Positions 26,800 through 28,461 of a stretch of 64,000 bases of DNA are shown in pieces. The position numbers and the translations under genes are program-made. The notes below the pieces were generated by a model that ran no database searches, was not told the DNA's origin, and saw only the letters and a list, made by a program, of their open reading frames with translations. Origin of the DNA: an uncultured Pelagibacteraceae bacterium (GTDB lineage Bacteria > Pseudomonadota > Alphaproteobacteria > Pelagibacterales > Pelagibacteraceae). The DNA is taken from the NCBI GenBank assembly GCA_902587295.1, contig CACIKS010000003.1, positions 1-64,000 of the forward strand, in the 5' to 3' direction. How positions within the stretch are numbered: position 1 is the first letter of the stretch; each line of letters starts with the position of its first letter.

Positions 26800-27729
26800 A
26801 TGAAAATTTTAGGAATTGGAAATGCAATCGTTGATGTTATCTGCGAAGTTGATGAAATTTTTTTAAATAAAAATAATCTTAAAAAAAGCACTATGAAATT
26901 GGTCGATGAAAATGAATTTAAAAAACTCCTATCTAAATTAAATATTAAAGAAACAATTTCTGGAGGATCAATCGCCAATTCTGTTGTTGGCCTTTCTCAA
27001 TTGGGAAATGATGTTGGTTTTATAGGAAAAATCAATGATGATGATCTTGGAAAGAAATACGAACAAGGTTTAAGAAAAGAAAATGTAAAATATTTCTACT
27101 CTAAAAAAAAAGAGAGTTATCCTACTGGAACTTGCTTAGTCCTCATAACTCCAGACTCTGAGAGAACAATGTGTACTTATTTAGGAATAGCCGGAAAAAT
27201 AAATGAAGGTGATATTGATGTTAGTGCCGTCAAAAATAGTGAAATAACATTTTTAGAAGGTTACCTTTGGGACGCAGGCGAACCTAAAAAAGCTTTCGAA
27301 AAAGCAATCATTAACTCCGATAAAGTTGCTATGTCTTTATCTGACCAATTTTGTGTTGATCGACATAAGACAGATTTTTTAGAATTAGTTAAAAATAAAT
27401 TGGATATAACTTTTGCAAATGAACAAGAGATTTTTTCTTTGATTGGAGCAAAAAGTTTTAAAGATGTGATTGATTTTGGAAAAAATTTAGCAAAAATTAT
27501 GGTTATTACAAGGGGGGAAAAAGGAAGTGTTGTGATTGATAAAAATAATTTATTCGAATGTGATTCACAAAAAAATTTAAAAATCAAAGATTTAACAGGT
27601 GCGGGAGATCTTTTTGCTGCAGGATTTTTGCACGGATATTTGAACGGTTTAGACTTGCAAAAATGTTTAATAAAAGGAACTGAAATGTCATCAAAAATAA
27701 TACAAAAAATTGGAGCTAGACTTTCTTAA
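26800..27729 (+). CDS. PfkB-family sugar/adenosine kinase
   Basis: GGSIANSVVGLSQLG, DLTGAGDLFAAGFLHG. Confidence 0.9.
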   Translation: MKILGIGNAIVDVICEVDEIFLNKNNLKKSTMKLVDENEFKKLLSKLNIKETISGGSIANSVVGLSQLGNDVGFIGKINDDDLGKKYEQGLRKENVKYFYSKKKESYPTGTCLVLITPDSERTMCTYLGIAGKINEGDIDVSAVKNSEITFLEGYLWDAGEPKKAFEKAIINSDKVAMSLSDQFCVDRHKTDFLELVKNKLDITFANEQEIFSLIGAKSFKDVIDFGKNLAKIMVITRGEKGSVVIDKNNLFECDSQKNLKIKDLTGAGDLFAAGFLHGYLNGLDLQKCLIKGTEMSSKIIQKIGARLS

Positions 27730-27832
27730 ATTTTTTTCTATTGTAACTTCCCTTGCCTTTCTTGGGTTTAACAATTCTTTTACTGTATTTTTTAGAAAAT
27801 AAATCTTTTGCAATAGCATTTCTTTTTTTCAC
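27716..27832 (-). CDS. arfA: ArfA-like alternative ribosome-rescue factor (38 aa, GTG start)
   Basis: Not in ORF track. Reverse-strand translation MKKRNAIAKDLFSKKYSKRIVKPKKGKGSYNRKKFKKV carries the KKGKGSYxRK motif of ArfA. Start overlaps the upstream gene's stop (GTGA). Confidence 0.75.
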   Translation of the reverse strand: MKKRNAIAKDLFSKKYSKRIVKPKKGKGSYNRKKFKKV

Positions 27833-28461
27833 AGAGAATACCCTTCTGAGGTATTTTTTATAAAATTATTGTCTCCAAAATTATCTTTTATTTTCTGTCT
27901 CAATCTGTAGATATGCGTTTCTACAGTATGTGTGTCAGTATCTGAAGAATAAGACCAAATATTTTTTAGAATATAATTTTTACTTAAAGGTTTTTGAAAA
28001 GAATTTAGTGCATCAATAAAATTAATTTCTTTTTCAGTTATTTTAAGGACTTTATTATTTTTTTTTAACAATCTCTCATTTTTATCTAAAATATATTCTT
28101 TTATCTTAATTAAGGAATTTTTATTAAATTCATATCTTTTGCATAATTCAATTACCTCCTGATTAAATTGAGAAATATTTAATGGAAACTTAAAAATTTT
28201 TTCAAATTGATTTTTTGTATTTTTTTTTTGATTTTGTTTCTGAATAAAAATCTTTGGAATATCTATGTTATTTAAGGGTAATTTTTTTTCTAGATCGGTT
28301 TCAATTATAATCGCATTGTATTTATTTTCTGTTAATTTTTTAAAATCGTTGTTTATATAGTGTAGTGTAAATGAAAAAAAGGATTTTATTTCTTCAATAG
28401 ACTTGGTAAAATTTTCGCTTGAGATTAAAGCAATGTTAACGTTATATTTTTGTTTATGCAT
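27829..28461 (-). CDS. OmpR/PhoB-type winged-helix regulator with degenerate receiver domain
   Basis: C-terminal TVETHIYRLRQKIKDN...FIKNTSEGYSL is typical; the receiver part lacks the acidic pocket. Confidence 0.8.
   Translation of the reverse strand: MHKQKYNVNIALISSENFTKSIEEIKSFFSFTLHYINNDFKKLTENKYNAIIIETDLEKKLPLNNIDIPKIFIQKQNQKKNTKNQFEKIFKFPLNISQFNQEVIELCKRYEFNKNSLIKIKEYILDKNERLLKKNNKVLKITEKEINFIDALNSFQKPLSKNYILKNIWSYSSDTDTHTVETHIYRLRQKIKDNFGDNNFIKNTSEGYSL

Follow-up and report, generated by a model that had tools for sequence, protein, structure and literature searches.

A probable ribosome-rescue gene of a minimal ArfA type, overlooked in SAR11 bacteria and conserved beside a regulator gene

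A short reverse-strand reading frame in the 64,000-nucleotide stretch of SAR11 DNA analysed here (the window) is, judged by its sequence, a real and overlooked gene for a minimal form of the ribosome-rescue factor ArfA, common to most of this SAR11 family. The frame had been predicted as a 38-codon ORF, and exactly such a frame was present. Its translation is VKKRNAIAKDLFSKKYSKRIVKPKKGKGSYNRKKFKKV, with the GTG start read as M and a TAG stop. With high probability the frame is an arfA gene whose product, a naturally minimal ArfA, would carry out RF2-dependent rescue as a backup to trans-translation and would be made by translational coupling or re-initiation. The gene has plausibly been overlooked owing to its short length. 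ArfA is already a known kind of protein. What is new, as far as the open-licence literature that we searched shows, is its range of hosts, its architecture here, its broad occurrence in marine viral contigs and the non-stop switch apparently having been lost. The features are listed in Table 1.

Table 1. Positions of arfA, its neighbours and the divergent ArfA-like frames (window coordinates, or coordinates within the named locus)
Feature	Position	Strand	Evidence
arfA, minimal ArfA, 38 codons	27716..27832	-	GTG start, TAG stop; PF03889 over cut-off
Conserved basic core KPKKGKGSYNRK, codons 22-33	27734..27769	-	Corresponds to residues 31-42 of the E. coli protein; columns invariant or nearly so
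GTGA, overlap of arfA start and regulator TGA stop	27829..27832	-	NTGA in 89/115 loci
Upstream regulator gene, OmpR-type C-terminal DNA-binding domain	27829..28461	-	PF00486, 46 bits; conserved neighbour
14-base convergent 3'-end overlap, arfA (-) / pfkB (+)	27716..27729	.	ORF coordinates
Convergent PfkB-family kinase gene, conserved locus marker	26800..27729	+	PF00294, 152.8 bits
Divergent mini-ORFs, genus g4 and sister family f2	L195:1501-1608; L194, L196-L199, L297-L326	+ (L195)	N-terminal ArfA half only
45-48 aa ArfA-like ORF KKKNPMAKLLSSPMLRNKIVKNKKKIYNRKK, g3 clade lacking canonical arfA	L292:1486-1632; L327-L331	- (L292)	Conserved

The assignment to ArfA, made originally from the sequence motif, was borne out by the Pfam model PF03889, which matched the ORF with 28.7 bits (E 9e-7) against a curated cut-off of 25.5 bits. 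The six best matches in a search of PDB sequences were all chains of E. coli ArfA (YhdL), with E-values of 0.007-0.02, and the alignment ran without gaps over 31 residues, so that residue i of the window protein corresponds to residue i+9 of E. coli ArfA. No NCBIfam model matched the ORF. The KKGKGSYxRK core was that of E. coli except for the replacement of Met by Asn at position 31, and the equivalents of E. coli N14, I16 and L20 were also kept. Compared with its E. coli counterpart, the SAR11 protein lacks nine N-terminal residues and the C-terminal tail, and Ala18 and Ile11 of E. coli are replaced by Lys9 and Lys2. Its last residue is the equivalent of E. coli Asn47. In E. coli, ArfA cut back to Asn47 still works, and shorter forms do not (PMC5378476); the change of Ala18 to Thr inactivates it. 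The commonest SAR11 tail, KRKKK, stops at the equivalent of E. coli residue 44, short of the minimal active E. coli form. This early end, together with the shortened N terminus and the lysine in place of Ala18, is the main ground for caution about activity. Folding of the window protein is expected on the ribosome only. For structural studies it provides a naturally occurring minimal ArfA.

Both overlaps described in the original prediction, that of the GTG start with the TGA of the upstream gene and that of the last codons with the antisense end of the PfkB kinase gene, were found exactly. The arfA start codon (27830-27832) shares bases with the stop codon (27829-27831) of the upstream ORF on the same strand. 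The name OmpR-like, given earlier to that ORF, held for the C-terminal DNA-binding domain and no further; there was no other significant Pfam match, and no receiver domain was detectable with Pfam. The regulator was also seen to diverge faster (~31-55% identity) than arfA and the other genes around it. Both genes presumably lie on one transcript. A YkuD transpeptidase gene (Pfam) was a further neighbour. The order of pfkB, arfA and the regulator gene proved to be kept across four genera (g1, g3, g5 and g6): nth and pfkB point toward arfA and the regulator gene, which lie on the opposite strand and are followed by a ykuD gene pointing away, with yggS beyond. In genus g2 arfA lay elsewhere, adjoining a photolyase-related gene.

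The four-base NTGA overlap with the regulator stop was present in 89 of 115 distinct regulator-bearing loci, as ATGA (37), TTGA (31), GTGA (17) or CTGA (4). The overlap is thus kept while its first base changes, a pattern that re-initiation following the regulator stop would permit. Overlapping genes are frequent in streamlined genomes, and this weakens the argument for coupling. With good support from the retained overlap, we infer that arfA is translationally coupled to the regulator.

Conservation was examined over the genomes of the same order. PF03889 matched in 160 of 247 genomes, 86 of them over the cut-off, and a profile made from 26 SAR11 sequences improved the E-values to ~1e-18 and matched in 167. 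Canonical arfA was found in ~156 of the 194 genomes of the window's family (~80%), a number counted from the result tables after eleven weak divergent matches had been left out, of which eight came from the sister family, two from genus g4 and one from genome G174. The named relatives carrying arfA all belonged to the Pelagibacteraceae or Pelagibacterales, that is, SAR11. The frame was intact in all 140 chromosomal SAR11 loci examined, which held 121 distinct copies. Over these copies pN/pS was 0.09 when close pairs were compared and 0.12 with independent ones, and the third codon position was by far the most variable. Purifying selection on arfA is strong. In the alignment of 26 relatives, N5, L11, P23, K24, K25, G26, K27, G28, S29, R32 and K33 were invariant, and A8 in the N-terminal half was invariant or nearly so. 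The original prediction had named an unconserved KKGKGSYxRK motif, or in-frame stops in relatives, as grounds for giving it up. In the event KKGKGS[YF]xR was invariant or nearly so, and no stop was present inside the core.

About one-fifth of the family genomes had no canonical copy at intact loci, so arfA is not indispensable. In sixteen g3 genomes that have no canonical arfA and whose site was read (L167-L182), pfkB and the regulator gene were retained with the frame cleanly missing between them. This clean absence points to loss or non-gain and not to decay.

The other rescue components of the order suggested where such a protein would fit. The alphaproteobacterial type of tmRNA was found in 223 of 247 genomes, and the few genomes without a match were in many cases incomplete. 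The window's genome was among those with tmRNA, which had been left to be looked for, and ArfA would consequently be a backup and not the sole pathway. RF2 exceeded its cut-off in 37 of 40 genomes, and the window's genome carried prfB with 476 bits. In these respects SAR11 resembles E. coli, with RF2 in the genome and tmRNA as the main system. ArfB (NF006718) was over the cut-off in none of 58 genomes of the order. The window's genome gave two weak ArfB matches, inside the loci of RF2 and of its below-cut-off paralogue, presumably RF1; across the 58 genomes, too, weak ArfB matches came only from the two full-length release factors. Over the Alphaproteobacteria as a whole, 94 of 289 sampled genomes had ArfB over the cut-off, and PF03889 exceeded its cut-off in only 6 of ~335 genomes outside SAR11.

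ArfB (YaeJ) serves as a backup to trans-translation in many Alphaproteobacteria, and SAR11 ArfA would take this role. The two proteins differ in that ArfB is a release-factor-like hydrolase, needs no RF2 and is unrelated in sequence. A 2024 survey by DNA profiles counted 2,022 arfB genes and no arfA gene in 2,376 Alphaproteobacteria (PMC11633108), and a review restricts ArfA to the beta- and gammaproteobacteria (PMC8012679). The premise of the original prediction that ArfA is a known alphaproteobacterial family was weak in view of that survey, whose DNA profiles could easily have missed a short AT-rich gene. SAR11 bacteria are the most abundant marine microorganisms (PMC12753301). The presence of ArfA in ~80% of the genomes of a SAR11 family in which no ArfB was detected alters the known distribution of ribosome-rescue systems. 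It suggests that one backup was exchanged for another as the lineage became streamlined or within the streamlined lineage.

In E. coli, the basic C terminus of ArfA enters the empty mRNA channel and RF2 is recruited, and the N-terminal minidomain folds as RF2 opens (PMC5378476). By homology, the basic C-terminal half of the SAR11 protein, KPKKGKGS[YF]xRK with its lysine-rich tail, would enter the mRNA channel left empty when a ribosome runs to the end of a broken mRNA and stalls. The N-terminal half would then let RF2 adopt its open form and cleave the peptidyl-tRNA in the absence of a stop codon. Pairing with RF2 is species-specific. Synthesis would proceed from the regulator mRNA, through translational coupling or by re-initiation.

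An ArfA-derived protein might instead have another ribosomal role, for example shielding the mRNA channel of idle ribosomes during starvation with no recruitment of RF2. The channel-binding C-terminal core is the most conserved part of the protein, the N-terminal half, which in E. coli accompanies RF2 activation, is shorter and differs at Ala18, and coupling to a regulator would suit a starvation role. We nevertheless consider such a role unlikely. Residues N5, L11 and A8 of the N-terminal half are as constant as the core or nearly so, RF2 is present in the genome, the backup role is vacant with ArfB not found, and arfA is also carried by phages, to which idle ribosomes are of no use.

If the protein is a rescue factor of the ArfA type, as we prefer to read it, its synthesis appears to be controlled differently from that in E. 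coli. In E. coli, RNase III cleaves the message from which functional ArfA is produced (PMC4245945). Expression there is from a non-stop message, through which tmRNA represses arfA. SAR11 arfA differs in having an ordinary stop codon, retained in all 121 distinct chromosomal copies, and in starting inside the regulator stop. An RNase III-type hairpin was not found within arfA, where folding was no better than that of shuffled sequence, and no terminator-like site was seen in the gene. With the stop kept and no hairpin in the gene, repression by tmRNA through a non-stop message is probably inoperative. The tmRNA-dependent switch thus seems to be absent, making this a case of an arfA apparently without it. 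Control through the coupled upstream gene would be the simplest replacement. The poly-A run before the stop, which encodes the KRKKK tail, was considered as a slippage device and rejected; AAA made up 0.85 of lysine codons in the tail and 0.815 of the other lysine codons, which is no appreciable enrichment.

Relatives of the gene were also found in viruses. A tblastn search of phage records returned similar ORFs, several with weak E-values, in phages of Caulobacter, Brevundimonas, Roseobacter, Erythrobacter and Pelagibacter. Two pelagiphages were among them: gp30 of HTVC027P adjoins the small terminase gene and gp63 of HTVC034P lies near the large terminase gene, both annotated as hypothetical. 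A 2025 paper assigns PF03889 to HTVC027P gp30 and calls it ArfA (PMC12753301). This protein and the similar ORFs of alphaproteobacterial phages share the short architecture and the core of SAR11 ArfA, although the phage ORFs often have an extra C-terminal stretch. The window protein matched two PHROGs of unknown function, 20887 and 37108. A scan of viral contigs confirmed at least 318 arfA relatives, from which 80 marine loci were fetched. A T4-like clamp-loader gene was present in 25 of these (L212, L273 and 23 more among L203-L276), and UvsW-like and SbcD-like genes in 6. Misfiled SAR11 DNA was rejected as a source of the viral contigs, since none of the 80 loci held the SAR11 chromosomal neighbours.

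This viral distribution raises the question of whether SAR11 arfA is chiefly a phage-derived passenger, kept for infection-linked reasons and not for housekeeping rescue. Close relatives abound in marine viral contigs; among the matches listed, the closest viral copy had 93% amino-acid identity to a chromosomal copy over the core, and nucleotide identity there reached up to 89%. The two pelagiphages with arfA, and the rarity of PF03889 in other Alphaproteobacteria, fit the same picture. We regard this origin-and-use scenario as very unlikely, because the chromosomal gene keeps the same neighbours in four genera under strong purifying selection. Phage genes are absent around the SAR11 copy in its pfkB locus, whereas the phage copies have as neighbours genes for terminase, a T4-like clamp loader, UvsW or SbcD. 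A rescue function would in any case be compatible with a phage origin. Melnitz, a T4-like phage akin to the SAR11 myophages, carries a tmRNA (PMC9004378), and with arfA in hundreds of marine viral contigs this makes the use of ribosome rescue by phages directly testable.

A chance reading frame, ArfA-like by composition in AT-rich DNA, can practically be dismissed: the ORF is indeed short, AT-rich, lysine-rich and below the usual length cut-offs, but a random lysine-rich frame is ruled out by a pN/pS of ~0.1 and the conserved gene order, in addition to the PF03889 score, the 140 intact loci, the third-position variation and the absence of the whole frame from loci that have no arfA.

Among the known rescue factors, ArfT of Francisella and BrfA of Bacillus resemble the predicted SAR11 ArfA as small proteins that bring a release factor to non-stop ribosomes. 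Both are separate families by their descriptions (PMC8012679, PMC6299226, PMC6881298).

A further set of ORFs may represent divergent ArfA proteins, and we treat it as a lead. In genus g4 and the sister family f2, ORFs of 35-45 aa carried the N-terminal half of ArfA (NP[IV]AK.LRT..F...) without GKGSY. A profile of seven such mini-ORFs matched in 40 of 53 genomes of f2 by our own count, and in a few other Alphaproteobacteria. Comparison of this profile with that of arfA gave a probability of 96% over 28 columns, a value from two profiles that is not calibrated against a database. A plasmid search with a divergent mini-ORF gave no match. One divergent member, from a genus without canonical arfA, just reached the cut-off of DUF7230 (PF23876), with 27.0 against 27. 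DUF7230 may accordingly be related to ArfA, although it differs from SAR11 ArfA in having no GKGSY core, and the window protein does not match it.

On this basis a bolder proposal can be made, which we hold only tentatively and think rather doubtful. The minimal, stop-bearing ArfA of SAR11 and phages would form a distinct class, made continuously through regulator coupling and not induced when trans-translation fails. A wider family without GKGSY, related to DUF7230, would replace it in other SAR11 lineages and some other Alphaproteobacteria as a further, hitherto undescribed type of rescue factor.

An alphaproteobacterial protein from genome G357 (L034/L294) has GRKVYTRKVKH in place of the E. 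coli GKGSYMRKGKH and still scores as ArfA; it may represent a step between the canonical and the divergent proteins. The 45-48 aa ArfA-like ORF of the g3 clade, picked up by the profile of the seven mini-ORFs, lay near photolyase genes, and in most of the six copies read it overlapped the end of a glutamine-amidotransferase gene. Vicinity to photolyase was also observed for the canonical arfA of genus g2, with its photolyase-related neighbour.
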